Source: Umbilicaria muhlenbergii
Taxonomy: Eukaryota > Ascomycota > Lecanoromycetes > Umbilicariales > Umbilicariaceae
DNA length: 64,000 nucleotides
Assembly (NCBI GenBank): GCA_000611775.1
Contig: KK106983.1
Location: 2,848,808-2,912,807, forward strand
Reading direction: 5' to 3'
Shown: piece by piece, positions 1,292 to 64,000 of the stretch
How positions within the stretch are numbered: the stretch's first letter is position 1
Layout of the letters: every line of letters begins with the position of its first letter
The notes under the pieces: model-generated
What the model was told of the DNA's origin: nothing
The model's database searches: none
Seen by the model: the letters and a program-made list of their open reading frames with translations, nothing else
Program-made: the position numbers and the translations under genes

Positions 1292-1573
1292 TGTTTGGGA
1301 CTGCTAATTTGGAAGGTATAGAAATTTTTCAGATGGGAAGGGAAGAGGTAAGCTGTGGGAGAATGTGGGGATGTAGCTGGCTTCAAATCAGGAGAAAAGA
1401 AGAATTTTAAAATCACGTGGATGCCTCGAATTTTCAGCAGTGAATATTTCAATTATGCAACATTGCTTCCTTGATTTTCCGCACAACCCAAAGTGAAGCA
1501 ACCATCATCCCCACCCTACCTCCGCGGGATTGTACAAAAGACCCTATCCCATCATTCTGACCGACCCCCCCTC
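1292..1573. other. Intergenic stretch between P450 and VPS17
   Basis: This short spacer separates the 5' end of the P450 gene from the 3' end of VPS17. Both genes lie on the minus strand. I see no open frame with coding character and no repeat here. It should contain the P450 promoter and the VPS17 terminator, but I cannot point to individual sites. Confidence 0.4.
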
Positions 1574-3536: not shown

Positions 3537-3899
3537 ATTATGTGGACGCTCTAGGATGTTGCGCTCGATCGGCTACCGTCTTCTCAGTGGATCGGCCGCG
3601 GGCAAGCTGGTATGCGGTCTGACTAACAGGCCCCTTGGAGCATTGTGAGCCCTAGTACAGATTTCTCCTTGGTAAGCCGCTGAGACTCGAAAAGTAATGA
3701 ATGAAGCCGGAGAACCACGAAAGGTAGAGACACTACGGGAGAGCTTGGCATAAGCCGTAAATGGCGACGTCGACACGGGAGCGATCACGGCGTTAGCCGG
3801 ACCCGTAAGGCTGAACTCCGAATCTGTGGGGGATCTTTCAGTCTTCGCAGTTGAGGCGTAAAGGTCTGCAGCAAGCCAAAGCACCGAGAGACGGCTACA
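3537..3899. promoter_or_regulatory. Bidirectional promoter region VPS17/MEF2
   Basis: This 363-bp spacer separates the start codons of two divergently transcribed housekeeping genes, so it must hold both promoters. I cannot identify a specific TATA box or factor site with confidence. The small open frames crossing it lack coding character. Confidence 0.45.
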
Positions 3900-27800: not shown

Positions 27801-28270
27801 TGCGAGAGAAAGTGCTAGGCAAGGAACATCCAGATACACTTATCAGCATGAACAACCTTGCATTAGTGCTACAGCTTCAAGGCAAATTTGAGGAGGCTAA
27901 GGAAATGCATCAACAGACCCTGAAGCTGAAAGAGAAAGTGCTAGGCAAGGAACATCCAGATACACTTATCAGCATGAACAACCTTGCATTAGTGCTACGT
28001 CATCAAGGCAAATATGAAGAGGCTGAGGAAATGCATCAACAGACTCTGAAGCTGCGAGAGGAAGTGCTGAGCAAGGAACATCCACATACACTGCAAAGCA
28101 TGACGAATCTTGCATTCGTGTTAATGCGTCAAGGCAAGTATGAGGATGCTGAGAAACTGCTTCAACAAACCCTGCAGCTGCGACAGAAAGTGCTGGGTGA
28201 GGAACATCCAGATACACTTCTAAGCAGGAATAACCTTGCAGCATTGCAACGACAAAAGAGGAAAGTTTGA
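24806..28270 (+). pseudogene. NLR-type gene: PNP/UDP phosphorylase-like, NB-ARC, TPR; one in-frame stop
   Basis: Two exons (24806-25871 and 26226-28270, intron GTAAGT...ATATAG) keep one frame over 1036 codons. Residues 1-350 are a purine-nucleoside-phosphorylase-like domain (ETAIICALKSEADAVEASF, LLVGVCAGVPN, LLGDVVIS, FEMEGAGV). NB-ARC follows, with FVGRE, Walker A GLGGVGKT at 404-411 and Walker B WLMIVDNADD at 480-489. Seven kinesin-light-chain-type TPRs of 42 residues end the protein. At 25721-25723 TAG replaces the Trp expected after EMEGAGV, and the conserved [21 protein letters not shown] continues in frame behind it. The rest of the frame is clean, so the lesion is recent or strain-specific. 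Alternatively it separates a short PNP protein from the NB-ARC part. The 354-nt intron is long and may hide a further small exon. Confidence 0.85.
27490..28250 (+). repeat. Tandem 126-bp TPR-coding units
   Basis: The TPR part consists of 126-bp units (42 residues each). Units are most alike in the middle: 27805-27872 and 27931-27998 are identical over 68 nt. One unit near 27670-27730 is a codon shorter (SNSLMNNLAQ). Strong DNA identity between units is typical of NLR repeats that turn over by recombination. Confidence 0.85.
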
Positions 28271-41600: not shown

Positions 41601-43949
41601 TTAGTGAGGCTACTGATGATTGATTAACTTCAATGAAATCTTTTTACAAGTTGTCTTTTATGTAGTTCTTCATCACTATCAGTTCCTCATGTGACATATT
41701 GTAAAGAGGTGTGTATTTAAGCTTTTACTCACCTTTTAAGATAATCTTGTGATCATAAAGTTGATGTGAAGGAAGTTCATTTGCAGCTTTTTTAGAAAAG
41801 ATGTCAATCAAGTCATGATATTCAAAAGGGAGAATCACTTTGATATTTAATTCACTTAACTTTAATTTAAAGTTCAATGCTTCCTCAATCTGTTGAATAA
41901 AGATAATAAAGATTTCATTGCCTTTCTTCATATTTAATGTAAACAGTGTTGTGTTAATCATCTTGATATTAACTGCTGATTTAAGATCTGCTTTTGTGAT
42001 AAATTTCTTCAAGATCTGATAGGTTTTCAGTGATTCAAGTTCAATTGTTCAGTTTATTCATTCATTCAGTGTTTAGTCCTTCAGTTCAGTGAGTTCATTT
42101 GATTTCATTCATTTGTTTGTTCAGTTCTTCAGTTCAGTTCATTCATTCAGTGAGAAAACCACTACTCAGTTCACAGAGTTGATTAAAATTCAGATGTGAT
42201 TCATTTAAGAGAGTCTCAGTATAATGTTGAGATCTTTCATGTTGATAATCATCATGAGAGTAAGTCACTGAGAATGATCACAAACCTTCATAATTAAATA
42301 AATTATGTATATAACTCATCTCACTGTCTTCTTCTGAAAATCATGTAGAGTTCAGAGCTTTGACAGTGATACTGTCTTAATTTTAAATCATTCAATCAGA
42401 GTCTTTGTCAAGTTAGCATTAATGAATGCATATTTAATTGACTCAGTATTAAGTAGAGCCTTGACTCATAGCTTGACCTCATTCAGTGTGAGCTTGCAAT
42501 TCACTTCAAATGATGTTCAGGTGAACAGCATGTCTTCATTAATTATCAGTGCTGATATTACAAGGAGATTATCATTGATTCTTATCATGACTTTAATAAG
42601 AGAACGCCTTTTCCTGAATCTGATTTAAAATCAGAATCAGAATTGAATATGATTTATTACATGCATTTTAATGCTGAAGTCTCTTTCTTTTTGTTCTTTT
42701 TCAGACAGTTTAAGGCAAGGTGCCTTTATTCATTATATTTAAAATAACATTCTTTTTTCATCTGTTGTTTTTTGACGGCATCTGAGTGTGATGTTCAGTT
42801 CAGTGTTCAGGGGACTGACTCAGTGATTATTTAAATCATTGATTTTAAGGTTTTAATAAAACATTCAGTCCTTGTATGAGTTTAACTTGTGAAGAGAGAT
42901 GTTTAATTCAGTTTAATAATCTTTTTTACATCAAGCAGTCATAAGGTCTAATTGATTTATTAACAGCACTTGATGAGTTCATAAAGATCTTCAGGTCTGT
43001 CATCATCAGTGTTTAATTATCATTGAATGATGTTGTTCACCTTGTTCAGAAGTTCTCCTATTCAGTATAAATCAAAAAACTCATTCAGTTCAGTAACATA
43101 TTACTGAAAATCAACTTAAAAGAATGAGAAGTCTTTGAATTCTTAATAAAGTTTATGAAATTTATTGATGACAGTACATTTTTGATTTGAGTTTCTGTAA
43201 ATTCAGGTCAAATGTTTTAAAAGTTCATTAATATTTAAATAAGCTGTTTGAGATGCTGAATTCATTTAAGGTTTTATGTGTTTAACAGGATCACTCTCAA
43301 CTTTTATTTTCACATATGTTATCTTCATCTGCTTAATGAGATATTATTAATTCATTGTTAATAAGTAGTTTCTGATCTTCATTACTCATTCATCATATTT
43401 TGAATAGTTGTTGAAGAATATTGATAAATCAAGAAGCTTTAATAATCTGAAGCTGAATAATCCTTCAACTGTGAATTGAGGGAAATCAGGTCAGAGGGTG
43501 CTCATGAAGATGATTATGATTCATTATTCAAAGTATGTTATCACATCAGCTTATTTAATAACTTTCTTCTTCAGTTTCTTGTTCTTATCTTTCATTCTTT
43601 TATAATCTGCTTGTTGTTCTTCATGTGCCTTTATAATGATGTCAATTTCATTCAAGGACTGCTCATGATTGATGATTAATTATTAAAGAGCAGTCATTGC
43701 TTCAGAGGAATGTTCTTATAAGAGATTAATTAAAATCTCTGCAGTCAGAGCTGTCAAGATCTGATTGATCAGGTTTTCATTCAAGATAAGTTGTTCATTA
43801 TTCATAAAAGTCAACAAAGACTCTTTGATTCATGAGTAAATTATATTATTGATTTCTTTAATCATCATGATTGATTTCTGATTCTGATTTTAATTCTGAA
43901 TTCATTCAGAATGCCTTGCAGCAGGAGATAAAAAAAGAGATTAAAATAA

Positions 43950-44214: not shown

Positions 44215-44416
44215 TAGTTGATCCTCTTAAATACCTTAAATTCAACTGCAATGTATTATAAGCAATTGTTTCTGCGTTCATAAATCAATGTGCAAGAACA
44301 ATAAGAAATAAGTAAGTGATTAAAGATCATAACAAATGATAATGCACAGACAGCACATTATTAAATTAAATTAATTAATTATTCTTTCTCTCTGATAACT
44401 GTCTGCTGCTGAGTTA

Positions 44417-45441
44417 TGCTGCATCATGAGTTGAGTTTTACTCAGTGAGTTTGAGTTTGAGTTGAGTTTGAGTTGAGTTTTGAGGTGAGTTATATGTGTT
44501 AAAACTCAATTCAGAAAAAACTCAACTCATTTAACTTAAACTCAGAAAATTCTGAGTTAACTCAGTACATACAAATAGTTATGATAGTTTTTATGATAGT
44601 TAAGAAAATCAGTTCAAAAGATGTCTTCTCAAGTCATTTTCAAGATTATTTTATGAGGCTGTCATTGAAGTTATTTTAAAAGTCATTTTGAAAGTCACTT
44701 TGAAAGCTGTTTTTCAAGGTTGTTGTTGAAGTCATTTTGAAAGCTGTTTTAAAAGTCACTTTGAAAGCTGTTTTGAAACATCATCATCAAAGTCATTCTG
44801 AAAGTTGTTTTAAAAGTCACTTTGAAAGCTGTTTTTCAAGACTGTCATTGAAGTCATTTTGAAAGTTGTTTTAAAAGTCACTTTGAAAGCTGTTATGATA
44901 ATCTTTATGATAATCAAGAAAGTCAGTTCAAAAGATGCCTTCTTAAGTCATTTTTAAAGTCATTTTTTGAGGCTGTCATTGAAGTCATTTTCAAAGCTGT
45001 TTTGAAAGTCACTTTAAAAGCTGTTATGATAATCTTTATGATAATCAAGAAAGTCAGTTCAAAAGATGCCTTCTTAAGTCATTTTTAAAGTCATTTTTTG
45101 AGGCTGTCATTGAAGTCATTTTCAAAGCTGTTTTGAAAGTCACTTTAAAAGCTGTTATGATAATCTTTATGATAATCAAGAAAGTCAGTTCAAAAGATGC
45201 CTTCTTAAGTCATTTTTAAAGTCATTTTTTGAGGCTGTCATTGAAGTCATTTTCAAAGCTGTTTTGAAAGTCACTTTAAAAGCTGTTATGATAATCTTTA
45301 TGATAATCAAGAAAGTCAGTTCAAAAGATGTCTTCTTAAGTCATTTTCAAGGTCATATACATGAACTTGAACTGAGTTACTCAGTGAAAACTCAACTCAA
45401 ACTTAAAAAAACTCAACTCAAACTCAACTCATGATGCAGTG
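44417..45441 (+). mobile_element. TA-flanked TIR element, copy 1
   Basis: The ends TGCTGCATCATGAGTTGAG and the reverse complement CACTGCATCATGAGTTGAG are flanked by TA (44415-44416, 45442-45443). The body consists of short GCTGTTTTGAAAGTCACTTTGAA-like units. It includes three full identical 131-bp tandem units (44889-45019, 45020-45150, 45151-45281) and a partial fourth. No coding capacity. It sits inside the outer gypsy element. Confidence 0.85.
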
Positions 45442-47511
45442 TATGCTGAGTTAAGCTCTTCTTACTCAGAAAAGTCATCCTCATTTATAAAGTCTGAGGT
45501 ATCAGTGAGATTGTTGATGAAGTCATGAAGTCTGATGTGACTTTCATTCCTCACTAATGATACTTCCTCACTGATTAAATTTATTAAGACATTATTTTAA
45601 TCATCTGATGAAGTCTTCTTGTTGATAATTTTTTCATCACTCATTTCACTTAAGTTCTTTAAGGTGAGGTCATTCACATTCTCATTCATGACAATATCAT
45701 CATATTTAAAAAAGTATGCTTTCATCAGATGATTCTTCTTCTGCAGTTAAGTTATGATGCTTAACAGTCTGTCATTGAGCATCTTCAGGTCAGCATTCAG
45801 GAACTTGATTCATTAAAAATCTTGTGAGTGAAGATTATATGCATTTTGAAGTTGAGTCTCAGTCAACATTTTTATGTGATTTTAATTCTTCTGCTCTGCC
45901 TGCAGTTGTTGTGTGATTTTAAATTCATGATTAACTGCCTCAGCCTTCTTCTTCTTTGTTTTCATTAATGTGTTTTATACATTCTTATAAGTCTTCTTAA
46001 TCTGTTTATGTGAAACAGGCTGTTCTGTCTTTTTATTAACTTTAAGTGCAGACTCTGCTGCTTCAATCTTTACTGACTCATTGTTAAAGTAAGCATGATG
46101 TAATAAATCATCTTTTGTTGTTTTACTGATGATTTAATCATCTTTTGTTCTTAAAGACTTCTTGAATCTTCCTCACATATAATTATCAGATGTATCATCA
46201 TGTAAGTCATTTAACATTTTAAAGAGGCATAGTTTATACTTTTTGTTCATGTTCATGTCAGTGTAGTTCTGAACACCTTTTATTCACTTTGAATAATTAT
46301 TCATCACATGCTTAAGGTCTGTATTCAGGAACTTGTATTCATCATTGTCATCAAGCAGTTTTATTAAGTACTTAAATTGTATTAAAAGATGCTCCTGATA
46401 TGTGTAATAATATGATGCTTTGTAATGCTGAGTGATAAAGTTTTTTACAGAGGTGATAACAATGAGCTTTTCATTTATCTTTCACTCATCTTTTAAAGGG
46501 AAGTTTATAATCTTTAATTAATTTATCTTCTTGTCTGCTTTCTTCTGATACTTTTACTTTTTTAATAATGTGATTAATATAAACATTTCTTCAACCTCCT
46601 GACTTGACTTTGAGAAATTATAATTTAAATTCACTCTCTTCTGATAATCTTGCTGACTTATGAGTATTTTCTTTAAATGATTCACTCACTTCTGTTTTCC
46701 TGCATGTGTGAGAGTTGATTAAGTTGTCTCACTCTGAACTTGAGTACTGTTTTTTAACTTATGAACTTCTGAGTCCTCAACTGAAGTGAGGTAGTAGAAG
46801 ATGTTTTAATTTAATTTAAAAATCTCTGCTGTCTGAAGTTGAGCATTTAATAAATGATGATGAAGATGTCTGATGTTTTTTGCTTCTTCAATGTTAATGT
46901 TTTTCAGAATTTCATGTTTTTTTCTCATGTGTGCTTTATTGTTCTGTTGTGTTTTTTTAAACTTTCATATTTTTAAGTCTTTCTTCACTGACCTCTTCTT
47001 GATCAGGTCTCACATTAACTCATTATTCATCTCAATGATCTTTAATTATTCATTAACTTCAGGTTTTCACTTTTCATCTTGAGCCTCAGTGTGAGTTTTG
47101 TAAACTTTCACTGTGATAATTCTCCTCTTGTGAGTATTGAAGTTGATTGACCTTCTGTAATTGATGATCTCAGTGTTTTAATTAATAAATTTCAGGAATG
47201 CTTCCTTCATGCTGAGAGTATAAGTGATGACAGTTGAAGAGCAGGTATCAGAGGGTATGATAATAATATCAGAGATTTAATTGCTTTCTCATTTAATCAC
47301 TTCATTGATGTAGATGTTGTCAGTGACTGTTGAGTTAACAGACTGTGAAAGTCACACCTTCATAATTTCAGTCTTCAAGTCTCATTTAAAGACTTGAAGT
47401 GAAGTGAACTTGTCAGCTGAATCTTCTTCAGACTCACTGACTTAATAATTTGTAAAATAGTTCATCATGTCATAATTAATCTTGTTGTGATTGAACTTAT
47501 CTTCAGACATG
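45442..47511 (-). other. Extra relic region of the outer gypsy element, past integrase
   Basis: Read on the minus strand, a relic frame appears to begin near 47511 (MSEDKFNHNKINYDMMNYF) and continues in pieces towards 45450. It is rich in charged residues and interrupted many times. It matches no gypsy Gag-Pol part I know and lies where some elements carry an additional 3' gene. It may belong to the element or be an older insertion. Treated as a fossil. Confidence 0.35.
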
Positions 47512-48226
47512 ATTTACTGCTTTGTACTGATCTTTCTGAATGCTCTGTACGTGCTCAACAGTGTAGGGATGAATGATGTAGAATGAATGAAAAGAGAGTG
47601 AAGTTAAAAAGTGTTATAACTTCACTGATGTTAATGCTTCATTCACACATGTAGAGTTTTGATTAATTATGAGCTCTTAACATCATCTCACTTTCATGAC
47701 TTTCAGTGAAGCTGTTGATGAGAGTGTGTTGACATTACAGTTGATGAAAATGTCTGTGTGTGAAGTGAAGTAAAATTTCATTCATTTTTCTCTTTTTTAA
47801 TCTTTGTATTCTGTCATTCTGATTATTAATTGTATGATCTTCAACTTTTTTTTTATTATCTCATAATTTTCTTGCTTTTAACTCTTCTGCCTGTTCAGTG
47901 AGTCATTTAATACTCAAGTGTGTTTAATCTCTGTTTTTATTCATCATTTTTAATGAGTTGTCTGTAAGTCTCTCTTTCATTGACAGTGTTATAAGTGATA
48001 ATCACTGATTTTAACATTCACTGTTTGAACTTAATGTTGATGTAATTATTAATTAATTAAGGTACTTTCTTTATCTTCTTGAGATTCATACTTAATATGT
48101 CATGTTGTTTCATATTCTTTAATAGTGTCATCATTTGATGAATGTCATTAAATGTGTTGAGTCATCTGTTACATAATTCTCCTCTGTTATTTGTTGTGAC
48201 CTGTTATGATTAATAATAATTTAGCA

Positions 48227-48417
48227 TTTTCTTTTTTCTTTTTTTCTTCTTTTCTTTTCTTCTTCTTTTCTTCTTTTCTTCTTTTCTTTTTTTCTTTTTT
48301 TCTTCTTTTCTTCTTTTCTTCTTTTCTTCTTTTCTTCTTTTCTTTTTTTCTTTTTTTCTTCTTTTCTTTTTTTCTTTTTTTCTTCTTTTCTTCTTTTTTT
48401 CTTTTCTTCTTCTTTTA
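48227..48417. repeat. Polypyrimidine tract (TTCTT/TTTTC)n
   Basis: About 190 bp made of TTTTCTTCTTTTC-like units on the plus strand, almost without purines. On the minus strand it would code Lys/Arg/Glu runs and lies just past the integrase relic of the outer gypsy element. Confidence 0.9.
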
Positions 48418-51400
48418 TGAGTTTTTATTCTTCATCAGCATTTTTTCTTCCTTTTTGTTTTCACACTTCTGTGTGCAGTTATTTGTTATCAGCTTGAAGG
48501 TTTACTGCTTTTTTCTTTCAGTAATTTCATTTCACTTCCTCATCATATTTAACTGATCATTCATTGTCAGTCTTTCATCACTGAGTGTTTAATACATTCA
48601 GGAGAGTCTCATTTTTGTTTAAATTTAAATCAATATTCATTCTCTTCTTGTAAACATGCCTTGACTTCATTCATTCTTTAGTCTGAGATAATTGTTCATC
48701 ATTAATGTTTATCACAGTTCTTTAGTTTTAATTCTCTGATTTAAAGTTCATCTGTGATATGAAGATTTTAACATCATTCATATGATATTTTCCTTTCATC
48801 TCATTTGACTGCATAGTCTTGAGTCACAATGACTTTTAATGAGGCTTTACTTTAACTACCAGATATGAATCTTCAAATGATGATGACAGTTTATAACTGT
48901 GTTGTTTATATTTTTATAATCAGTGTAATAAAATGAGATTCTCTTTTTAAATGAAGTGTTCTGATCATTTTGTCTGCTTAATTACATTTTGCTGTTCTTC
49001 AAATATTCTGTTCATTATCAGATTCTGAATTTCATTCAGATTAATGAGTCATGTTTTAAATGCTGCCTCAGTCATTATATGTTTCTCATTGATTCATGTT
49101 TTAATGCTCATGATAACTGTTTTTGATCATAATTCATTCTCAAAGCTGTTGACATCTGTGATGAAATGTGACTTAAATCTGAATAGCATTTGTGCTGATG
49201 AGTAATTAAAGATTTGAATGAGCTGAGTGTTGATAGCATTAATGATAAACTGAAGAAAGTGATTTCATTCAAAGATGTATTTCATTAAGTGTGTTATCAT
49301 AAACTTCAAGTTTTTAATAATTATTTAAACATATCTCTCTGTCAGTTCTACTGAAGATGAGTGATTTATTAATACTTAAACATGCTTGACTCTCATCTCT
49401 CATAATTTTTCATTGAAAGCTCTCATGAAGTGTTTATTATTGTTGAAGTATATCATTCTGAGTCATCTGAAGATGTTTGCTATACATCAGATGAAGAACT
49501 TGATTGTGTTAACTGAGTTAAAAACTGATAATGACATTGCTCAAAGGTATCATGTCATGTAATTTATCATAATGATAATAAACCGTGCTTCACTTTTTAT
49601 TATCAGGGTGAATGATTCAATATAATTAATTCTCATACAGTTTAATGATTATAAATGTAGAATGAGTAATAGTTCTTGAGTCAACTTCAATGTTTTTAAA
49701 GATTAACAGTTGATACACATTTTACAGAACTTCTTAATGTCCTGTTATTAATTTAATCATCAGAATTTACTCATGACCTGTTGAACAGTGATTTCTGTTG
49801 AGAAATGCTCATAAACATTGTGTAAAATCTTCAAGACTCACTGTATTTTGAAGAAATATAAACATCATGATAATTTTTCTGATTACTTTCAGTACATGAG
49901 TTCAGGTTCTGCTTCATTGATTAAAATGAATTTCTTTATTTTAAACTTAATTACTCTCTGTTCTGATCTTTTAATGTTCATTAGTGCTGAGAAGGCTCCT
50001 GAGTGTTTATATTTCATGATACATGAATATCATGAGTTATTCAATCAGTTGACTCATTTGTCATGTCATGACTTCACATCTGAAACTGCTGATATATTCT
50101 CAACATTTAAGTTTAAGTTATCAGTTGTATGATCTTCTGCGTTTACTCCTTTCACTGTCAGTGTTGAGAATGTGAATTCAGCATTGTCATCTGAAATGAT
50201 ATACATCAGAGGTCTGTTGATTCATGATAAGTTATTTATAATTATCATTTTTCTTCCTGAGACATGATGTATCTTCATATCATACTCTGACAGGTGTAGC
50301 TGTCATCGGGTTATTTAAAATGAACTTATGTTAACTTGTAAGATTATTAGAAGAGCCTGATGATCAGTGTACATTTTAATAAAATGTTTAACTTTTAACA
50401 TAAATCATCTACTCTCTTTTAAATCTTATAATATTATCAGGGCTTTTTATTCTGTGATGTGATAATTGACCTCTGCTGATAAGAACTGAAATGACATATA
50501 CATTATCACCCTCATGTTGTTGACATGATCAGGAGACATTACTGTTTCAGATGAAATATTATACAATTGAAATAAATATCCTCTTACACTGAATTTTGAA
50601 GCATCTGTTGATAAATAATATTAAATATGTGCTTCATCTTTTGATGTTGTGTTCTTCAGAATTGCTTTCTTAATCATCTTAAAAGTTGATTGTTGCTCTG
50701 ATTCTCATATGAAGTTTATAATTATTTAAACTTGAGTTTTTTGCTTCTTTATTAATTTAATTATAACTTCTTTCATGATCATCTGCTTCATGATAATTGT
50801 GAGATCTGCTCTTTCAGGAATAAAGGTTCAGAGGAACAGTAACATGTAGATAAATCTCTTTAAAGATGAAGCATCAATTAAGGTAAAGTATTCTCTCATG
50901 ACAGTTAATTTGTCTGTTGATAATTAAATATCAGTATTGTCTTGATTAAAGCTTAAAATCTTTAGTTTTTCAATAAAGAATTTGAACTTGACTGAATTAA
51001 TGATCAGCTTGACTCATATTAATTGAGAAAAATAATGTTCATGCAAGAATGTAATGAGATTCTTAAAAATGTCTGCTTCTTTAATGTTGTCATTAATAAA
51101 ATAATTGAATGTCATCTCTTCTGATACCTCTGACAAAGCTGACTTTAAATGAGGAGCAGGAATATTTCTTATAATAATGTCTTTCATTCTCACATATGTG
51201 CTTGAGGATTCAGTAAGTTCTTGACTCATACATAAATAACACATCTGCTTATATGCTGATGAGAATACTGATTTGTATGCATGTTTCAAGTAAAGTAAGA
51301 CTGCTCAATAATCATTGAATGCATCAATCTGAAAAACGTACTTGATATGCAGCTGTGATATATCATGTAAGATCAGCTTCATTTATCTCATTATGTAATG

Positions 51401-54400
51401 TGCCTTTATTGTAGCTGTGTTTATCAGGATAAAAGCATGAATCATTTTCAACTTATTATTATTTCATTTTCTTGAGAACCTCATCTTTACTGATTATGAT
51501 GATTAACATTTAATGATTATCTTCACTTTCATTAATGATTTAAAGTGTGTTTTTTATCAGTTCATCTCTTCTCTGATATATAATGATTGACATACTTTCT
51601 TCAGTATAACCTCTTTATACATGAGTATTTGATGTATCACAAGATTGATTATTGACATGAATTGAACATTCTCACAGAAAACATCCTGTCATGTGTTTAA
51701 AAACTTCATTACTGTCTCATGATGCTTCAGAGTGTCAGTTAACTCACTTATCATGTCTGAGAACTTATTCAGCCATTTGTAAAATTCTGAATTATCAGTT
51801 GTAAGCATTGTGCATCTGAATTTCATCAGTCATCTGTCAACTGAAAATGTTAAATTATCAGATTTAAACTCTGCTTTCTTCTGAGGAATTGATTTTGATA
51901 AATTTAATGCAATCATTACTTTTGAAAAGCCTTCATTATGCAGTTTCTGCTGATTGCATTTCACTTTTTCAGTGAAGTTCACTCATCTAATCTGAGAACT
52001 TAAATAAATCAGGAGTGTTAAAGTGAGTTATGATGATATCTTCTCAATTTTCTTCTTCTTTAATCATTCTTTCAGTACAGCTGATAGATGTCTTCATTAA
52101 TTTTCAGTTAACTTTCATGTATCATGTTTAATGAAGGTTTATACTTTTTCTCATTATTTCAATCCTTGAGTATAAGTTTCATACTCATTAATGAACTGTG
52201 CAGGAGTCATGTCCTTTGATTAATAATTATTATTTTTTACAGCTGATGATTGTGAAGTTAATTAATAACATTTACTTTTTAATGATCATGATGATTTTAT
52301 CCTGAACACTCATTCTGCTGCATTCATTTTCTTCAACTTTCAGCATGCTCTCATTATGTTTTGTTGTGCTTTTCAGTTCATTGATTATATTTTCTCTGTT
52401 GATGTTGTTTCTTCCTTCAGTCTTTCTGCCTGCTGACTCATCATACTTTATGATGCATTATATTTTTTTAATATAATTTCTGACTTTTTTTTTATCTTCT
52501 CAGCATCACCCTTGCTGTGCTCTCTTGAGTGAGTCACACTCATAAAGATCAAGTTTTTTATGAGTGAAAAGTTTTTAAAAACTTTGATGAATCCTTCTCA
52601 TTGAAGTTTTCATTAATTTCATTATCATCATTCTCTTCTTCTTCAGCTTATTTAATAATTTCTTATAAGATTAAATTGATTTTCTCTTCTTGAGTGAGAT
52701 TAAGGTCTCTGAGGGTATGTTGATCATATGATAAGTGTGCATGATCTGCATATTCACTGATGTGAATCTGAGGTGTCAGTATTAGCTGAGAGAACTGCAT
52801 GATGTCAAGTTTTCTTTAAATCTTATTATTGTCTTGAATTCAGTATTCATTCATTCTGTATATGCTCACTTCTTGTACTGATCATAATCAAAGGTGTTTT
52901 AAAAATAAAGTGTATGATGTATCCTCTGAGACAACTGTCATAAGTATTCTCTTCATTAACCTCTTCATCTTCATATTGATGTGTGTGTATTTTAATAAAA
53001 CTGTTCAGTCTCTGTTGATGATCTTCATTGAGGTGAAAGTGTCAGGTGTAATTTAAAAATTCATGAATTTAATGACTCTCTTTAAAATTAAGTTGATGAT
53101 TGATTCAGTGTTGATTAAAATTTTTAATAAAATGTACTTTTTTAACTCTTTTATTATGAGTCATGCTTCAACTTTAGTGTAGAAGTTGCTGATAATGAAG
53201 AGTTAAACTGATTCAACATTTAAATTTATTTATTAATTTGTTTTTCAAATTTATGAATTCACTTCTGTCATGTTCCTCATCACCTCTCACACATGTTTTA
53301 CATTAATTACTTTTTTAAAAACTTTCATCTTTTTCTTCTTGTTTAAGTTTTCTTTCAGCTTTACATTAATGTTTATTATCAGATGTAAAGCATTCATTAA
53401 CTGAGCTTTAACTCAAAGTGACTTATGAGTCAGTTGCATTATTAATATGAAAATGACAGTGTCTTTAAGAAAGCCTGCAGCATTTCATGAATTCTGATCA
53501 CTCATGCCTCTCAGCTTTTGAGCAGCTCATCATGAAGTAAATGTATCTTTTAATATTATTGAAAGTCATGAGTTTTTTAATCCTCATTGAGTTAATTTTA
53601 AGTCTGCATCTTATGCAGTTCTCTTACTGCTTATGATTTAATCATCAAGGGCAGCATCTACCTCCTCATGATCATTAATCAGGTGAGATGCTTGATACAC
53701 TTTAACACAGTTGACATTATAAGTGAGTTTTAAATAGTTTTCATTGATGTGCATGTCTTCATCTTCATGATCATAACTGAATAAAGAGTTAAAGACTGAA
53801 GGGAAATTTTTCTTAAATGTAATCTTTGCTTAAGTAACTGTTTTCTCTTGTGAATATAAAATGTTACTGTTCATTGTGTTTTTTACTTTTTAATTGTTAC
53901 TTGAGCTTCCTCTTAATTCAGTTTCCTTTGCATTTAATCATGCTTGATGTTTAATTTTTATTTATTTTTATATCTTTCTTGAAGCTTTCTGTTTTCAGCA
54001 GTTCAGGATCATATGTTTTAATTAACAGCATCAGTAACATATGATGTTCTGATGATCAGTATTATTATTATCAGGTGTTGATTAATTGTTATCACTCATT
54101 GATGTACAGCTGAAAGTTTTCATTTAATTCACTGATTGATATTCTTCACTGATAGGCGGCTGACTTATCTTGACATTTAAAAGTTGATTAATCAGCATTT
54201 ACATGCTCTCTGTGAAACTTCATCTCTGCTCATTCATGAGCTGATACTGCTGTGTTATTATTTATGTCAGTGTTAAATTTATTTCTTTTAACTTCTGATA
54301 ATCATTTAATGTAGCTGATTTCTTTTCTTGCTTAAAGATGTTATTTTTATCATCTGCTTCTTTAATTATTTGAGTTATGTTCTTTAGTTCCTTGAGTTCT

Positions 54401-56124
54401 GCTTTAAGAATCATTGCTTAAAAGATATATTTAATAATACTGTCATTTAATCTGTTGATCAGTTGTTTCAACAACTCATTATGCAGTGATTTTGAAAGGT
54501 CTCTCTTAATCTTTCTCATCTTTTTGAAGTAAGCATTCAGACTTCAGCCTTCTTGCTTGAACTTAAAAAGATTTTTAATAATAATCACTTTCAGATCTCT
54601 CTCCTCCTCATTTAAGAATTATTTTAATAAAGTTATGAACAGGAGTGTGAAGTTTTTTCTGATTACTTTAATTTGATTTTTAATTTATTTCTTAATGATA
54701 AAGTCTGTCTCTGTGTTTAAATATAATAAGAACATCTTCACTTTGTTTTTTTCCTCTACTGTATTAAATGTGTCAGTCATTGATAAAGATTCATAACTCA
54801 TAAATGTTAAAAAACCTTTCACATCATCATCTCACTCTTCATTAAACTCTGATATCTTGAAGTTGATGTTAAAGCTTATTAACATGATGACTGACATTGT
54901 GTTTAATTAATTTAATGAAGTTTATTATTCTGTTGATTGAGTCCTTGATTCTAATTACTAAGTAAGAGGTGAGTCATTAAAGTTTAATAAGCTTAAGAGT
55001 TAATTTATTAAAATCATTACTTTTTAATATATTTCTTCTGATTGTTTCTGAAGTTCACTTAAGTGACTTCTTGATTGATTTATAAAATGTGAGAGTGACA
55101 ATTATTGTTTTCATGAGAACTTATCATCAGCTGTATGTGATATGCTGATTTCTTGAATTGCTTAAGCATTCAGTCATCTCTGTTCATTATTAAACAGTAC
55201 ATGAATGCCATTAAAGAAAATGTCTGATGATTTGTTTTTCTCATTTTTTAATACTGAAGAATGAGCCCTTCTGATCAACTTTTTATATGTTATAAATGAT
55301 AATTACTCTGTTTAAGTCTCTTGATTTTAATCTTCCTGAATGTGTTCTTCTGAAGATGATGATTGTTATTAAACTTTAAACATCAAAGATTCTTCTTGTG
55401 AATGATAATCATCTGATTGTCTTGATTTATAAATTCATTCAGTTAAATGTTCCTCTTTCAGCTAAGTTGCTGAAAAACTCTGATGAGAGGTAATCAGGTG
55501 ATGTGTGATGTTCATATGAAGATTATTATCTGAAGCTTGAACTCTTTTTCCTCATTCATTAACAACTTGATGCTCTTTTAGATGACAGCTGATTTCAGGA
55601 TCATGATTGTAACTGATTAATGAACTGTCAATCACTTGTGCATGTATGAGTATGATGATGTTGATGAAGGAGAATGATGAAGCAATTACTGCTCTTGTTA
55701 AATTCTTCTTACAGGAATATTATCAGGTGTATTACTTAAGTTTTTTATCATGACTGTGTTTTGTTGCTTCATTTTTTTTAGGGTAAATAATTGTCATATG
55801 AGTATGTGAAGATGATTGATCAGTTGCTTACATCTCAGTTCAACCCTCAAATGTCACCTATAAGTGTGCAAAGTAAAAATATGATGACAATGAAAGTGTA
55901 TATTAATATATTATGTAATTAGCTAGAAAGAGCATGAAAAGCAGGCTTTAATACTTTAAGCAGATTAATTTAAAAGAAGCATTTTCTCATTATCTGCTTT
56001 ACATCAGATCAGAGATACTCTGTCTTAAGAGCTTAACTTTTAACAAAATTGTCTCAATTAACTCAGACTCATTGTGAAGAACATGATTGCATCATAATTA
56101 ATTCTTTTCAAGAACTTCTTCTTA

Positions 56125-57078
56125 TGCTGCATCATGAGTTGAGTTTGAGTTGAGTTTTGACTATTGTGACTCAACTCAGACTGAGTTGAGTTTTTTTTAA
56201 GTTGAGTCACACTGAGTTGAGTTTTTTTGAGTTTGAGTTGAGTTTTTCACTGAGTAACCCAGTTCAAGTTCATGTATATGATTTCAAACAGCTTTCAAAG
56301 CAGCTTTCAAAACAGCTTCAACAACAGCCTTGAAAAACAGCCTTGAAAAACAGTCTTGAAAAACAGCTTTCAAAACAGCCTTGAAAAACAGCCTTAAACA
56401 ACAGCTTTCAAAACAGCTTTCAAAACAGCCTTAAAAAACAGCTTTCAAAGTGACTTTCAAAATGCTTTTAAAATGACTTCAATGACAGCCTTGAAGAACA
56501 GCTTTCAAAGTGACTTTCAAAACAGCTTTCAAAATGACTTCAATGATGACCTCAAAAAATGACCTTGAAAATGATTTAAGAAGGCACCTTTTGAACTGAC
56601 TTTCTTGACTATCATAAAGACTATCATAGCCTTGAAAAACAACTTTCAAAACAGCCTTGAAAAACAGCCTCAAACAACAGCTTTCAAAATGACTTTCAAA
56701 ACAGCCTTGAAAAACAGCTTTCAAAGTGACTTTCAAAACACTTTCAAAATGACTTCAATGACGGCCTTGAAGAACAGCTTTCAAAGTGACTTTCAAAATG
56801 ACTTTCAAAATGACTTCAATGACGGCCTCAAAAAATGATCTTGAAAATGACTTGAGAAGACACCTTTTGAACTGACTTTCTTGACTATCATAAAGACTAT
56901 CATAACTATTTGTATGTACTGAGTTAACTCAGAATTTTCTGAGTTTAAGTTAAATGAGTTGAGTTTTTTCTGAGTTGAGTTTTGACATATATAACTCACC
57001 TCAAAACTCAACTCAAACTCAACTCAAACTCAACTCAAACTCAAACTCACTGAGTAAAACTCAACTCATGATGCAGTG
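56125..57078 (-). mobile_element. TA-flanked TIR element, copy 2 (inverted relative to copy 1)
   Basis: TIRs are TGCTGCATCATGAG at the left and CACTGCATCATGAG reversed at the right, flanked by TA (56123-56124, 57079-57080). The left subterminal part matches the right part of copies 1 and 4, so it is inserted in the opposite orientation. The body is built of AACAGCTTTCAAAACAGCC-like short units; no coding capacity. It lies 121 bp right of the outer gypsy LTR. Confidence 0.85.
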
Positions 57079-57080
57079 TA

Positions 57081-58930
57081 CTTCTTCTTCATAGAGTCTG
57101 AGCATGTTATTGATAAGAAAGCACTTCTGAATAAACCTCTTCATCTTTCATATAAATTTTTAAACTTTTACATAGATCCTATTAACCTGATTAAGCAGTA
57201 GTACTCAGCGCGTCATTTTTACACATCAGAGGTGATGATTTCTTTGAAATCTGAATAAAAATGAAGATTAAATTAGAAGGCTTAATTATTTAAGATTTAA
57301 GTTCAATTTTAACTTTCAAAAGTCATTCAAAAGATGAATATATGTTAATTGCATGCAGATCTTCATTCTCTTCACTGTCATCATCTCACTACTGACTTTT
57401 TTTTATTATTGATGTCATCATCTTTTCTCTGACTGTTGCTGTCATCATCTTCATCATCTTATAACCCTCTTCAATCAGAATTTTGAGGTAATTTCAGGCA
57501 ATAAAGTGCTGTCAAAATCTGACAGGCAGTTAAATCATCACCTTTATAATATATCTTAAAGGCAGAGATTTAACTGATTAATTAAAAATGTTTCACATAT
57601 CAAGCATCTCATGAGAGATGCTTGATGTGCTTATCACAGTTAAAAATTATTTACTGTTTTTATTACCTCATGTTCTCAAGATGATCTGTCACAGGGGTAA
57701 AGTTAATGAATTAAAATAAAGTTGTCTGCTCTGTTGATGCCTTTTCTTGCTGCTGAGTTTATTAATTTGCTGTTCTTTTTGCTTGCTGACTTAAAGCTCA
57801 TGAAGCTCATAAAGTTTACTGTTACTGTTTATTTCCTTTTTGTTAACTTGCTCTTTAACTTTTTTGCTCTTTTTGTTTTTTTTATTCTCTCTGCCCTCTC
57901 TGCTTTTTCTGCTTCTTTCACTCTCACTGCTCTTGCTGCTCTCACTGATTAATTTAATTTAAAGTAAGCTCTCACTGTGAAAGATCTTATCTGATAAAAG
58001 TTTTAATTAATTTTTCATGTTGATGAACTCAAATGAGGTTCTGAATCATAATTATAACATTCATAAATTGAACCTTTGCAAGTGAATTTAATTATTAATG
58101 AAAATGTATATAATTCTGTTTCAGAGTTTTCTTAATGAAGAGAAAAGTTTAAATATTATGCTTACATGATAAATCTGTGATGATTGAGAAAATTCTGATA
58201 TAAGATAATAAGCATGTAAACTTCTTAATAAACTTCTTTCACTGCTCATGCATAAAATCAATGACTTGAATATTAATCTTGTATTATAAATATTAAAAAA
58301 TTGAGACATTGTGATAAAAAAGCATGATCTCAGCCTTTTGATCTTTATAAAAAAGATGTAATTCATGTAATTAATATTTAAGCTTATATTATATCTTCTT
58401 TATAACATTTATTAAATTTTTAAGACTGCTTTTTAATTTTTATTTAATCTCTTAATGCTTTCCTTCTGCTGTTAACATTATTAACTTATTAAAGTGAAGA
58501 TAAATATTTATTCAAGTTCAGTAATACTTCTCTCACATGTTCTCAGTGAATTACTCCTTTAAGAGGTATTTATAAAGAGTAGTAAATTAATAAAAATTAA
58601 CCTCAGTGTTAAGACTTACTCAGAACAGCACTTAAAAGTATGCATTCATAATAAACAGTTAATATCAATTGAAGTGATTGAGGTGAGTGAGGACTCAAAC
58701 ATCTTGATCACCTCAATCAAGGTGATTGAACTGTTTGAAGTGATTAAGAGCTCAATCATCATGATCAACTCAATCACATGAGTCTTTTAAAGTTTATATA
58801 ATCACAGGTAAATTCACAGTTAGAAGCTCATGCTCAACTCATGTATTAAATGCAATCTCATAATTTCATAAAGCCTTAAAACTATGATAATGTTGTAATA
58901 ATAATTCATTAAATAATTGTATTATCTCAG
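57081..58930. other. AT-rich hypermutated stretch without recognisable gene
   Basis: CpG-poor, AT-rich DNA. I can recognise no protein relic with confidence. The part at about 58640-58930, with inverted short motifs such as AATCACCTTGATTGA, might be an LTR of the gag-bearing fragment that follows, but no partner repeat is visible in the window. Confidence 0.35.
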
Positions 58931-61259
58931 TCATTATGACATCACCTGTTACACTTTGAGCATCATCCTCAGAATATCAGTCATGAAATGAACTGTGACT
59001 CAACAATCATTGCTGAGATGTTAATTTCAAGCTGCAGCACTTCAACCCTTGAGATTGTTGAACTCATGATGAAGATCAAAATCTCATCATCAGACAAGTT
59101 CATGAGAGAAAAAAAAATATTAAGCCTGTTTCTTACTCAGCTGAACACTTATATTCAACTCAATTACATCATGTTCAAGAAGGAAGCTGACAAGATGTTG
59201 TTTATATTAACACACTTAAAATCTGATGTTTTTAATTAATTCAAGCTGATCCTCTGAGATTATATGAAAAATGAGAAGAAAGACTGTGATGATGAGATGA
59301 ATAAAATCTTCTTCAGTTTAAAGAAGTTCAAGAAACAGATAAAGATAATGTTTAAAATTATTAATCAGAAAAGAACTGCAGAGTGAGAAATTTATAACAT
59401 CATGCAAAAAGAAGCTGCTGCAACATACATTGTTAATTTTTAAAGACATGTCATGTATACAAATTGAGACAATTATGCTTTAACAGCATAATATTATAAG
59501 AGCTTAAAGGATTTTGTTAAAGATGAGATCTTTCATTCAGAGTGATTAAGTACCTTAACAGTCATGATTAAAAAATCAGTCATTATCAACAATCAAGCTT
59601 ATGAGAGGTTCATAAAGAAGAGTTAAAAAAACTACATGCTTCAAAAAGCAGCAAAGTCTTGAGACACTTATTATAATAATAAACCCTACTACAGCCCTCA
59701 GCTGATGAAAATTGATGTAATGTTTCAAAAGAATTATTTTCAGAGAGGAGACAAGTCATGAGTATAAGAAAACACTAAAGTTAAAGACAACTGCTATAGC
59801 TGAAGAAAATCAAGACATTTTGTTCATGATTATTAAATCTTAAGAAAGATCTTTTTAGCAAAAAAAACATACACAGCTGTGTTAAAGAAGTCAGTGCTGA
59901 AGAAATTAACTTAACATGAAGTCATGTCTTGAACAGTCTGTTATGATAACAGCTGCATGATTTATCAAAGTGATAAGAACAGCTTCAGATGATTTTCATG
60001 TTAATTAAAAGAAATAAAGAATTATGTCATGACCTCTCATTAAAACCCTGTTGCAGAAGCAGAAAAGCAACAAGTTAAATAACAGAAGTCTAAAACAGAA
60101 GAAAATTATATTAACAGTGATAATATAATATCCTCATTTAGTGAGGAGGAAGACTTCATGAAAGTAATAAACTTTAAAGATTTAAGAAAATTTTTAAAAA
60201 AGGACAACAACAACTGATTGTTCACTCATAAAGAAAGATAAATTCAAACATATTCTGAAGTACTTAACACAGTCAAAGCTCACAAAAAAGAGTATGTGAA
60301 CTGAGTAAAAAAGTTAAGAGAACAGATCCTTTATATTATATGAAACACTTTCACTCAAACTGAAAGTCACAAAAGAGCCAGCTATCAGGACATAATCAAA
60401 GAGAATTCATTAAAAAATTTAATGTTCATCACTCAAGAAGGATATGTTACCTCTGATGAAATATATATCTTCAAAAAACTCTGTATGTGAGTTTAAGAAC
60501 TTAAGAGTGACTATTTAAAAAAAGATCTGATTAAATATTCAGCTCAGAAAGTGAATCTGAAAGACTTTAAGTATGTGAAAAAGAACTTAAGTTTCTTTTC
60601 CTTTAATTTAAAAAATTAAAGAGCCCTTCAAGTTAAAGGCTCCTGAAGACACTTATTTTAAAACCTTCAAGCAGCAGTCAATGAGAATTCACTGCTGCAG
60701 TACAAAAAGACATGAGCAATTTTTATGTTTAAGTTAAAGTCAATGATCAGCCAGCCTGACTGCTAATAGACAGTGATTGTACAGAGAACTTCATGAACTC
60801 AGAATTTACTGTGAAACATGCAATTTAAACTCAGGAAAAGAAAAACCCTTTTCATCTTCAAGAATTCAATGAAACCTTTATGAAGCATAATGATGAATGA
60901 GTAAACTGAGAGACAGTTCTCATGCTCATACATTTAAGTCAACACTGAGAAAAAATTCAATTCAACATCATGAAGCAATCAGGAAGTGATATAATTTTAA
61001 ATATATCATGACTTCAAGCAGTTAATTCAATGATTGATTGAGCTGAAAATGAGATATACTTCATTAAGGGTGATAATCTTAATAAGTTATATTCAGTCCT
61101 GAACTCACCTGAAGGTGTGGAAATCTTCATTATGTCAGCAGAAGAGATGCATGAGGAACTTAAGAATCCTGATGCAAAGATACTGTGAAGCAGGTAAATC
61201 AATGATGATCAAGACTCTATTATCAAGTTATTTATCTTTAAAGAATATAAGGACTTCTA
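58931..61259 (+). mobile_element. Ty3/gypsy fragment: gag and following region, truncated, broken
   Basis: Plus-strand relics resembling gypsy Gag (FLTQLNTYIQLNYIMFKKEADK; MQKEAAATYIVNF) start near 58990. A zinc-knuckle-like and protease-like stretch continues to about 61200. Reverse transcriptase and integrase are missing: the fragment ends where TIR copy 3 begins at 61260, and no gypsy sequence resumes behind it. Broken by dozens of stops. Its orientation is opposite to the two elements on the left. Confidence 0.7.
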
Positions 61260-62222
61260 CGCTGCATCATGAGTTGAGTTTGAGTTGAGTTTTAACTATT
61301 GTGACTCAACTCAGACTGGGTTGGGTTTTTTTTGGGTTGAGTCACACTGGGTTGGGTTTTTTGGGGTTTGGGTTGAGTTTTTCACTGGGTAACCCAGTTC
61401 AAGTTCACGTATATGACTCATTCAAACAGCTTTCAAAGCAGCTTCCAAAACGGCTTCCAAAACGGCCTCAACGACAGCCTTGAAAAACGGCCTTGAAAAA
61501 CGGCTTCCAAAACGGCTNNNNNNNNNNNNNNNNNNNNNNNNNNNNNNNNNNNNNNNNNNNNNNNNNNNNNNNNNNNNNNNNNNNNNNNNNNNNNNNNNNN
61601 NNNNNNNNNNNNNNNNNNNNNNNNNNNNNNNNNNNNNNNNNNNNNNNNNNNNNNNNNNNNNNNNNNNNNNNNNNNNNNNNNNNCGGCTTCCAAAACGGCC
61701 TCGAAAAACAGCTTCCAAAACGGCTTCGACGACAGCCTCGAAAAACGGCTTCCAAAACGGCTTCCAAACGGCCTCAACGACGGCCTTGAAAAACGGCCTC
61801 GAAAAACGGCTTCCAAAACGGCTTCGATGACGGCTTCCAAAACGGTTTCGACGACAGCCTCGAAAAACGGCTTCCAAAACGGCTTCCAAAACGGCTTCGA
61901 TGACGGCCTCAAAAAGCGGCTTCCAAAACGGCCTTGAAAAACAGCTTCCAAAACGGCTTCCAAAATGGCTTTGATGACGGCCTCAAAAAATGACCTTGAA
62001 AATGACTTGAGAAGGCACCTTTGGAACTGACTTTTTTGACTACCATAAAGACTACCATAACTATTTGTATGTACTGGGTTAACTCAGAATTTTCTGAGTT
62101 TGAGTTAAATGAGTTGGGTTTTTTCTGAGTTGGGTTTCAGCATGTATAACTCACCTCAAAACCCAACTCAAACCCAACCCAAACCCAAACCCACTGGGTA
62201 AAACCCAACTCATGATGCAGCG
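61260..62222 (-). mobile_element. TA-flanked TIR element, copy 3, least mutated, contains the gap
   Basis: The ends CGCTGCATCATGAG and its reversed CGCTGCATCATGAG are identical and flanked by TA (61258-61259, 62223-62224). The body keeps CpG sites and consists of CGGCTTCCAAAACGGCCTCGA-like short units. The subterminal parts carry repeated GGGTTTGGGTTGGG-like blocks. It is interrupted by 166 N. Same orientation as copy 2. It shows the CGC ends that have become TGC or CAC in the other copies. Confidence 0.87.
61518..61683. other. Assembly gap (166 N)
   Basis: A run of 166 N lies inside the short-unit repeat of TIR copy 3. The unit repeats on both sides are nearly the same, so the true length is uncertain. 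Any reading across it is meaningless. Confidence 0.99.
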
Positions 62223-62224
62223 TA

Positions 62225-62765
62225 GTCACTTTGAAAGCTGTTTTTCAAGGCTGTCATTGAATAATAAATATGCTAAATAGATAGATAAATAAATAAAAGG
62301 TATTTAAGCATATGATAAATGTCATGCAACTCTTACATGAGTAAGTGATGCAAACTCTGCATGCTATGTGACCTCATCAGTCATCATTAATGACAGCTTA
62401 TTAAGCTGTTTTAGCTCTACACTTAAGCTCTTTAATTTTACACTTGAGTTTTAAATGTATATTTAACACTTCTCCTGCAGTTAGCCTCAAGCTGCTTTTT
62501 AATTTATAATTGTAGACATAAAGTAATCATGTTTTTCATGAATCATGTTAATGAATAATGAGGGGTAACAATCTTATCTTGACATTCATACATCATTCAC
62601 TTTTCCTCCTTAATCATACAATAATCATGATTGATGACATCAGTGTTGCCTCTTCAGAGGTCTTTATCTTGATTATCATGATCAGTAAGTGTTCTTGTTG
62701 TAGTTGTAGTTGTATTATTGTCACTTTTAACTGATCTGTGATTTAGTTGAATAAGATCAACAGTA
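62225..62765. other. AT-rich spacer with a fragment of TIR-element body
   Basis: The first 37 bases (GTCACTTTGAAAGCTG...) match the internal unit of the TIR family but lie outside the right end of copy 3. They are thus a remnant of another copy. A short GATA/AATA-rich stretch follows at about 62275-62297. Otherwise nothing recognisable. Confidence 0.5.
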
Positions 62766-63610
62766 TGCTGCATCATGAGTTGAGTTTTACTCAGTGGGTT
62801 TGAGTTTGAGTTGGGTTTGAGTTGGGTTTTGAGGTGGGTTATATATGTCAAAACTCAACTCAGAAAAAACTCAACTTATTTAACTCAAACTCAGAAAATT
62901 CTGAGTTAACTCAGTACATACAAATAGTTATGATAATCTTTATGATAGTCAAGAAAGTCAGTTCAAAAGGTGCCTTCTTAAGTCATTTTCAAGGTCATTT
63001 TTTGAGGCTGTCATCAAAGCTGTTTTGAAAGCTGTTTTGATTTAACTCAAACTCAGAAAATTCTGAGTTAACTCAGTACATACAAATAGTTATGATAATC
63101 TTTATGATAGTCAAGAAAGTCAGTTCAAAAGGTGCCTTCTTAAGTCATTTTCAAGGTCATTTTTTGAGGCTGTCATCAAAGCTGTTTTGAAAGCTGTTTT
63201 TCAAGGCTGTTTTGAAAGCCACTTTTTGAGGCCGTCATTGAAGCCATTTTGAAAGCCATTTTGAAAGTCATTTTTTGAGGCTGTCATTGAAACTGTTTTG
63301 AAAGCTATCATCAAAGCTGTTTTAAAAGCTGTTTTTTAAGGCTGTTTTTCAAGGCCGTTTTGAAAGCTGTTTCTCAAGGCTGTTTTCCAAGGCTGTTTTT
63401 CAAGGCTGTCATCAAAGCTGTTTTGAAAGCTGTTTTGAAAGCTGTTTAAATGAGTCATATACATGAACTTGAACTGAGTTACTCAGTGAAAACTCAACCC
63501 AAACCCAAAAAAACTCAACTCAGTGTGACTCAACTTAAAAAAAACTCAACTCAGTCTGAGTTGAGTTACAATAGTCAAAACTCAACTCAAACTCAACTCA
63601 TGATGCAGTG
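62766..63610 (+). mobile_element. TA-flanked TIR element, copy 4
   Basis: TIRs are TGCTGCATCATGAG at the left and CACTGCATCATGAG reversed at the right, flanked by TA (62764-62765, 63611-63612). Same orientation as copy 1. It contains a direct duplication of 162 bp (62881-63042 repeated from 63043). The body carries the short GCTGTTTTGAAAGCTG units; no coding capacity. Confidence 0.85.
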
Positions 63611-63612
63611 TA

Positions 63613-64000
63613 ATTAATAAACAGTTACTGTTGACATTCCTCTTCTCTTGATCAGAATTCTGATCAGTGATCACTCAACTGATCAACATGATTTAAAACT
63701 CATTCATCTCACTTGAGTGAGTTGTTTAAGTGTAAGTGATCTCAACATCATTCATTCTCAGGAAGTGCAGATGCTGTTTGTTCAAATTTACTCTGCTCTC
63801 ATTTTTATTACAATATTATCACAGTCTTACCGGGCTATAGTTGTTCTGCATGATGTTAGTGAGCATATATGCCACGTCACCCTTCTAGATAGTTAGATAA
63901 GATTTACACAACATACATATTATTTTAACAATTTTGATGTTTTTCATTTTGATGTTTTCACTTTCAACTGATGTGTTGACAGGATTATGAACATCAGGCA
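63613..64000. other. AT-rich end of the window
   Basis: AT-rich DNA with slightly more CpG after 63820 (ACCGGGC, CACGTCACCC), so the repeat block may end or a less mutated copy may begin near the edge. No gene or repeat identified. Confidence 0.35.

Follow-up and report, generated by a model that had tools for sequence, protein, structure and literature searches.

Histone H3-like genes captured by hAT transposons have been described from Dothideomycetes (PMC3538342, PMC6710886), and miniature inverted-repeat transposable elements (MITEs) that carry or seed satellite DNA have been described from animals (PMC9659126). Both kinds of element are thus already known. The family analysed here, represented by four copies in a stretch of 64,000 bp from Umbilicaria muhlenbergii (contig KK106983.1, positions 2,848,808 to 2,912,807; hereafter the window), is a new variant, a repeat-filled fungal family with hAT-type ends. 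The four elements very probably form a non-autonomous (MITE-like) cut-and-paste family moved in trans by a hAT-type transposase, and the family is tied to a likely autonomous partner that resembles the histone H3-carrying hAT elements of Dothideomycetes.

In Pyrenophora tritici-repentis, hAT elements with a captured histone H3 gene (H3L) are reported in forms of about 5.6 and 2.3 kb, with one H3L (PMC3538342), and repeat-induced point mutation (RIP) is described as inefficient or lacking in this species (PMC6710886). As in the genome studied here, a hAT dimerisation domain and an H3-like gene lie between terminal inverted repeats (TIRs), and a long, likely autonomous form coexists with a shorter, non-autonomous one in the same genome (PMC3538342). 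However, the short Pyrenophora form is a recombinant coding chimera whereas the small elements here are filled with repeats, and the partner here is 11.2 kb with four H3-like remnants, compared to about 5.6 kb and one H3L (PMC3538342). hAT elements with histone H3-like sequence are also reported from Pseudocercospora fijiensis and its relatives in the Cercospora/Pseudocercospora/Sphaerulina clade, where full-length elements are 9.5-9.9 kb with a 20-bp TIR and one or two H3-like copies, and generate an 8-bp duplication without insertion bias (PMC6710886). The duplication is also 8 bp here. The captured copies in Pseudocercospora are RIP-inactivated and associated with AT-rich blocks, and decay there is from CpA to TpA (PMC6710886), whereas CpC and CpG are mainly affected here. 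The terms MITE and non-autonomous do not occur in the main text of PMC6710886. Judged by its anatomy, the putative partner is a further case of a hAT element with histone H3.

Among animal MITEs, miDNA4 of Xenopus tropicalis, Xstir of X. laevis, lepidopteran elements with (GTCY)n and the bivalve HindIII satellite are described as carrying or seeding satellites, and in each, as here, a non-autonomous element is associated with a tandem array (PMC9659126). For miDNA4, which is classed as Tc1/mariner, birth of the satellite inside the element is a published model (PMC9659126). The family described here differs in its hAT-type ends, its fungal host, an interior that is mostly array, and the presence of two unrelated array types within the same ends. 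Non-autonomous hAT derivatives such as Ds of Ac and mar of Drosophila likewise lack a transposase and have the ends of an autonomous partner; they produce 8-bp duplications, and their bodies are not known to consist mainly of tandem arrays. The combination of hAT-type ends, a mostly satellite interior, a fungal host and two satellites was not found in literature searches on repeat-containing fungal MITEs and on hAT elements with histone H3, judged by titles and the starts of abstracts. When four strings of the less decayed end were sought in the literature, only the 11-base one was found, in five papers on unrelated subjects.

Four elements in the window and their relatives in the genome

The window was searched for the family end with TA outside it, allowing up to 3 mismatches, and the result was compared with shuffled sequence. 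Eight matches were found against 0.02 expected from the shuffles, and these form four convergent pairs at 44417-45441, 56125-57078, 61260-62222 and 62766-63610 (1025, 954, 963 and 845 bp, all without TA). The four copies thus lie where a first-pass annotation of the window had placed them, and two face each way, as it had also stated, when orientation is assigned from the two kinds of end (A and B, see below). Its length range of 845-1025 bp was recovered by measurement, with the proviso that the length of the third copy (C) is uncertain because it includes 166 N. The same end is indeed common to all four copies, but the sequence given for it, CGCTGCATCATGAGTTG, is exact only in copy C. The other three read TGCTGC... 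and CACTGC..., which could be derived by C-to-T decay from the form that is commoner in the genome, TACGCTGCACCATGGGTTG. Likewise, TA is present on both sides of each copy as claimed but belongs to the element, and the 8-bp duplication typical of the family lies outside it. The annotation had noted no transposase, and the only open reading frames (ORFs) of at least 150 aa in the four copies are a pair in the array of copy C (155 and 176 aa), both crossing the stretch of N.

Copy A (44415..45443, forward strand, 1029 bp including the terminal TA) has end A at the left and is flanked by exact copies of an 8-bp target-site duplication, TGCTGAGT, at 44407..44414 and 45444..45451. Its tandem-array body (44660..45356, forward) is built on a 12-bp unit with higher-order repeats of 61 and 131 bp. 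Copy B (56123..57080, reverse strand, 958 bp including TA), with end A at the right, is likewise enclosed by an exact duplication, CTTCTTCT, at 56115..56122 and 57081..57088, and its body (56282..56904, reverse) contains 12/13-bp units and a 276-bp duplication. Copy C (61258..62224, reverse, 967 bp including TA) is the most GC-rich of the four and has no target-site duplication. The N are located within its tandem array (61518-61683), and the part of the array to the right of them (61684..61989, reverse) has a 12-bp unit. The right end of copy C is directly adjoined by 38 bp of family body sequence, so that this copy probably lies in or beside an older one. Copy D (62764..63612, forward, 849 bp including TA) has end A at the left. 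Its 8-bp flanks, ATCAACAG at 62756..62763 and ATTAATAA at 63613..63620, match at 5 of 8 positions, the three differences being C/T or G/A, and its body (62878..63447, forward) comprises a 162-bp duplication and 12/13-bp units. A further end-like match at window position 54475 (2 mismatches) has no family match beside it (E up to 1e-8). All four copies are in an AT-rich block that extends from approximately 38.5 kb to 64000, with a GC content of 0.27-0.34 in 2-kb steps compared to 0.46-0.58 before it.

That these pairs are due to chance, or are parts of a longer repeat whose edges merely resemble TIRs, is scarcely credible. The only feature that favours such an origin is that the subterminal GGGTTT repeats are of low complexity, and against it stand the eight ends where 0.02 were expected and the sharp boundaries of the elements, with the target duplications and empty sites described in the next section.

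The genome-wide search for the end with TA that the annotation had proposed was carried out on 34.8 Mb in 7 contigs. The end occurs 146 times with up to 2 mismatches, and the less decayed form, TACGCTGCACCATGGGTTG, has 73 exact occurrences. The TIR is 24 bp long, TACGCTGCACCATGGGTTGGGTTT, and the flanking TA is its outermost part. Just inside the TIR the ends differ, and two kinds were distinguished, A (76 matches) and B (73 matches). When the A and B matches were pooled with the places among the matches listed for both end searches, 162 ends were obtained, which form 63 pairs and leave 36 ends single. All 58 pairs with both ends typed consist of one A and one B (31 AB, 27 BA). Eight of the single ends were inspected (in the retrieved loci L062, L063, L065, L080, L091, L092, L094 and L095), and no partner end was found in the stretches retrieved.

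Spans of 59 of the 63 pairs fall between 483 and 1634 bp, and the others are 2077, 7143, 11244 and 19522 bp. The 2077-bp pair (C1:1434602-1436678) was considered as an autonomous candidate by size and rejected, as it contains a long array and has no target duplication. With TIRs, a target duplication, no transposase and ends that are common to a larger coding element, the small copies have the properties of MITEs and other non-autonomous elements, in agreement with the first-pass description of a TIR-bounded, non-autonomous DNA-transposon family. MITEs are usually small and uniform, under about 600 bp, and in this respect the family does not conform.

Target duplications, empty sites and the class of transposase

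Duplications were surveyed in 44 copies (40 from the genome and the 4 in the window) in which both ends are close to the query; two pairs on contig C7 were left out. TA is present at both ends in 42 of the 44. An 8-bp direct repeat immediately outside the TA is exact in 34 copies and has at most one mismatch in 38, while no copy has an exact repeat at 9-12 bp, and the count was 0 in 1000 re-pairings of the flanks. Six more pairs were checked, bringing the coverage to 50 of the 63 pairs, and further exact 8-bp duplications were found at L081, the C5 partner (see below), L061 and L064. In total, 38 of the 50 pairs have an exact duplication, 4 have one mismatch, 2 differ by transitions only (copy D at 3 of 8 positions and L031 at 2 of 8) and 6 have none. 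hAT elements generate 8-bp target-site duplications, with a target preference of nTnnnnAn, and the length found here is as expected for this class. T occupies position 2 in 18 of the 38 duplications, and A occupies position 7 in 12 of the 38.

To represent the site before insertion, the left flank with one copy of the 8 bp was joined to the right flank and compared with the retrieved loci and the window. This gave 41 alignments that cross the junction, some of them overlapping records of one place, for 14 elements at 71-92% identity. In 27 of the 41 the 14 columns at the junction are gap-free, with at least one such site for every one of the 14 elements. No junction-spanning alignment was obtained for copy C, L040, L045 or L056, the four compared copies that lack a duplication. 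Two of the gap-free sites are in the window. For the element in L032 (C1:8752935-8753484), the paralogous empty site is at 42056..42831 on the reverse strand (87.3% identity over 782 columns); it contains a single AATACTGA, whereas GATACTGA flanks the element on either side in the filled site, and there is no pair of TA. That for the element in L035 (C1:10500284-10501341) is at 59665..60442 on the forward strand (72.1% over 797 columns). The elements, bounded by their TIRs, were thus inserted into formerly continuous sequence with duplication of 8 bp, and at the gap-free junctions a TA on either side could not be accommodated.

The first-pass annotation had suggested that the family is driven by a Tc1/mariner transposase with duplication of a TA target, and had named empty sites lacking the TA duplication as grounds for abandoning this idea. 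TA does flank both ends in nearly all copies surveyed, and DDE_1 transposase remnants are common in the genome (at least 43 matches). However, the TA is the element's own end with the 8-bp duplication outside it, no TA pair stands at the junction of the empty sites, and the 63 pairs contain none of the 43 DDE_1 matches among those listed. When 12 DDE_1 loci were scanned for the family end, a match was found at one, with 5 of 19 positions mismatched, and none at the other 11. Given the target duplications, the empty sites and the lack of DDE_1 inside pairs, a Tc1/mariner origin is rejected as highly improbable. A TA beside a TIR is insufficient for a Tc1/mariner assignment.

The likely autonomous partner

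An element of 11.2 kb on contig C2 (C2:6621253-6632496, 11244 bp) and a sister copy on C5 (C5:8584-28105, 19.5 kb) are the likely autonomous partner. The search for an autonomous element with the same TIR, also proposed in the first-pass annotation, was in this sense successful, though both copies are decayed and the element is apparently of hAT type, not Tc1/mariner. The C5 copy has one end A and one end B and an exact 8-bp duplication, TTTATATT. A Gypsy-like insertion, located between similar repeats, is nested in it and is absent from the C2 copy. The two share 94.4% identity over 4608 bp and 93.9% over 6648 bp.

The ends of the C2 partner were compared with those of 43 oriented small copies (L042, whose orientation could not be assigned, was excluded). 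At least 186 bp of end A are common to the partner and 42 of the 43 copies, with identities of 81-95% over all 43. At end B the shared segment is 141-146 bp in 32 copies and shorter in 8, at 65-88% identity, and in the other 3 no match of 60 bp or more to the partner was found.

A hAT dimerisation domain (PF05699) is recognised in the C2 partner with 29.7 bits (cut-off 21.4; 28.3 bits by read-through). It is approximately 2.4 kb from end A in both partner copies, with its C-terminus facing end A. The C2 domain is the only one of 13 hAT matches in the genome to fall inside any of the 63 pairs. The C2 partner thus has the C-terminal dimerisation domain that characterises hAT transposases.

Each partner copy also contains four histone-fold remnants. 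One of these was compared with solved structures and gave histone H3 as the best match (E 6.7e-11), with H3 names in the best 60 of 167. H3-like sequence therefore lies between the TIRs of the partner, a finding that concerns the partner and not the window copies. Partial histone-carrying copies in which the remnants are spaced as in the partner are found at C5:882777-886403 and C3:3464136-3470153. Neither was counted as full: the C3 copy has a B end but no A end in 2.8 kb near the predicted place, and the C5 copy has no B end in 0.6 kb at the predicted place, while an A end at 890117 points away from it. In a second group of hAT loci (L074, L076, L077 and L078, at C4:2967196, C3:1125388, C5:2438252 and C7:1385767), a histone-fold remnant is about 5.3-5.8 kb from the hAT domain in 4 of 6 loci, so that H3-like genes may be carried by more than one of the hAT lineages in this genome.

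Mutator-like elements (MULEs) produce duplications of similar length to those of hAT elements, and a MULE or another transposase with 8-9-bp duplications might move the family, the hAT domain being a passenger. MULE transposases have at least 24 matches in the genome, and two remnants in opposite orientation (C2:4073584-4076056) lie inward of a single family end at C2:4071904, 1.7-4.2 kb from it; in addition, the family TIR does not start like a typical hAT TIR. However, this end has no second end in the 9.5 kb retrieved, none of the 24 MULE matches among those listed is inside any of the 63 pairs, and the duplications are 8 bp with none of the 44 exact at 9-12 bp. The hAT domain is in the same place in both partner copies, although below the cut-off in one. 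A MULE-type origin is considered improbable.

Several observations weigh against movement of the family by the partner's hAT transposase, which is nevertheless the preferred explanation. The transposase gene has decayed. Pfam scans of the read-through frames revealed no RNase-H/DDE domain, and the hAT read-through has no match among solved structures (E up to 1). In the C5 partner PF05699 scores only 17.5 bits, below the cut-off, and the C2 partner has no target duplication. The domain lies inside the partner, and we infer its role as part of the enzyme that moves the family. hAT TIRs have the start consensus YARNG; the TIR here is short (24 bp), as in hAT elements, but its start, TACGC, does not fit. 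Six of the 50 pairs are without a duplication (copy C, L040, L045, L056, C2:6621253 and C1:1434602), and 14 of the 41 partly overlapping junction alignments are gapped in the core, which may reflect misalignment or change since insertion. Finally, a search of the partner with two strings of the 12-bp unit, allowing up to 4 substitutions, found neither, and internal deletion alone therefore does not explain the body of the small elements.

Tandem arrays and their decay

The bodies of the window copies are short, degenerate tandem arrays that differ in length between copies, as the first-pass annotation had described, and the period is mainly 12/13 bp. In 34 copies of the family without N and with a middle of at least 200 bp, self-match peaks at shifts of 12 (0.585) and 13 (0.537), also at 25 and 37, against a mean of 0.263. 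Coverage of the middle by Tandem Repeats Finder is 53-98% in the 43 oriented copies. N occur inside 8 of the 44 copies surveyed, making the lengths of these uncertain, and are also present next to the array in L095. Across the genome, stages range from arrays of about 0.1 kb to a run of 3 kb.

The 3-kb run is beside a single end B at C1:8634887. It covers C1:8631749-8634756 (L094, 2250-5257) with 3,008 bp and 247.8 units at 99%, and 207 of 250 windows taken in register are the identical 12-mer GAAGCCGTTTTG. It begins abruptly in AT-rich DNA, and no end A is present in the 2.2 kb to its left. Either this is a very young satellite or it is an assembly effect. In L081, a 7.1-kb pair with an exact target duplication, the interior is of a different kind, with a 742-bp unit present 6.1 times at 98% (base 300-4814), followed by partial units. 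This unit has no match to the C2 partner and resembles sequence elsewhere, including window positions 58775-58953. The suggestion that satellite DNA is present inside a transposon is thus borne out by L081 and by the array of about 248 12-bp units beside a family end.

The 12-bp unit has 370 matches in the genome. The 100 matches listed fall in five places, four of them inside paired elements and one within approximately 3.1 kb of a lone end, a distribution that fits growth inside the element. The first-pass annotation had raised the alternative in which a satellite existed first and was captured between transposon ends. The failure to find the unit in the partner is in line with capture, as is L081, where an array resembling sequence elsewhere indicates that foreign repeats can occupy the middle. 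However, the five places among the matches listed, together with the variation in unit number between copies, fit growth in place, and prior capture is regarded as fairly unlikely.

If the small elements are moved by the hAT-type transposase of the partner, this enzyme would recognise the TIR and the subterminal TTGGGT-type repeats found in both the partner and the small elements. The small elements could have arisen by internal deletion that left the ends, and slippage or unequal exchange would then lengthen and shorten the array of 12/13-bp units in the middle, with copies of 0.48 kb and more as the result. Growth of the unit beside one lone end would account for the 3-kb array, and RIP-like decay would end activity. 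A doubtful extension of this scheme is that the ends serve as a vehicle with tandem repeats as cargo, such that 12/13-bp or 742-bp satellites move within the same hAT-type ends and stay behind as fresh arrays once an end is lost. Mobilisation might also depend on array length, should transposase bind to the repeat units or the distance between the ends be set by them. A single fungal genome provides non-autonomous elements with their likely autonomous partner, target duplications, empty sites and arrays at several stages of growth, and birth of a satellite inside a transposon is testable here because the copies are marked by a process of point mutation.

This process was followed in the first ~170 bp of the 43 oriented copies and the two partner copies, using the majority of the 12 most GC-rich rows as the reference. 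C-to-T changes were found at 262 of 1794 CpC, 8 of 90 CpG, 38 of 1255 CpA and 1 of 310 CpT sites, where the reference rows are themselves counted and CpG provides only about two sites per copy; at A/T sites 56 of 4059 are changed. The extent of decay rises as the flanks become richer in AT (r = -0.49 with flank GC), although many copies with AT-rich flanks are little decayed. A RIP-like C-to-T process acting at CpC and CpG appears to have decayed many copies, the transposase gene included.

In the AT-rich block of the window (38500-64000), CpG is at 0.11, CpC at 0.47 and CpA at 1.48 of expectation, a pattern like that of a RIP-like process at CpG/CpC and not at the usual CpA. The same block contains a polypyrimidine tract of 190 bp (48227-48416) built on units of TTTTCTTC. 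Outside the block, an open frame at 26186-28270 predicts a front ATP-binding region, NB-ARC-like by eye, followed by tandem TPR-like repeats with a DNA period of 126 bp, an arrangement like that of fungal incompatibility-type genes.

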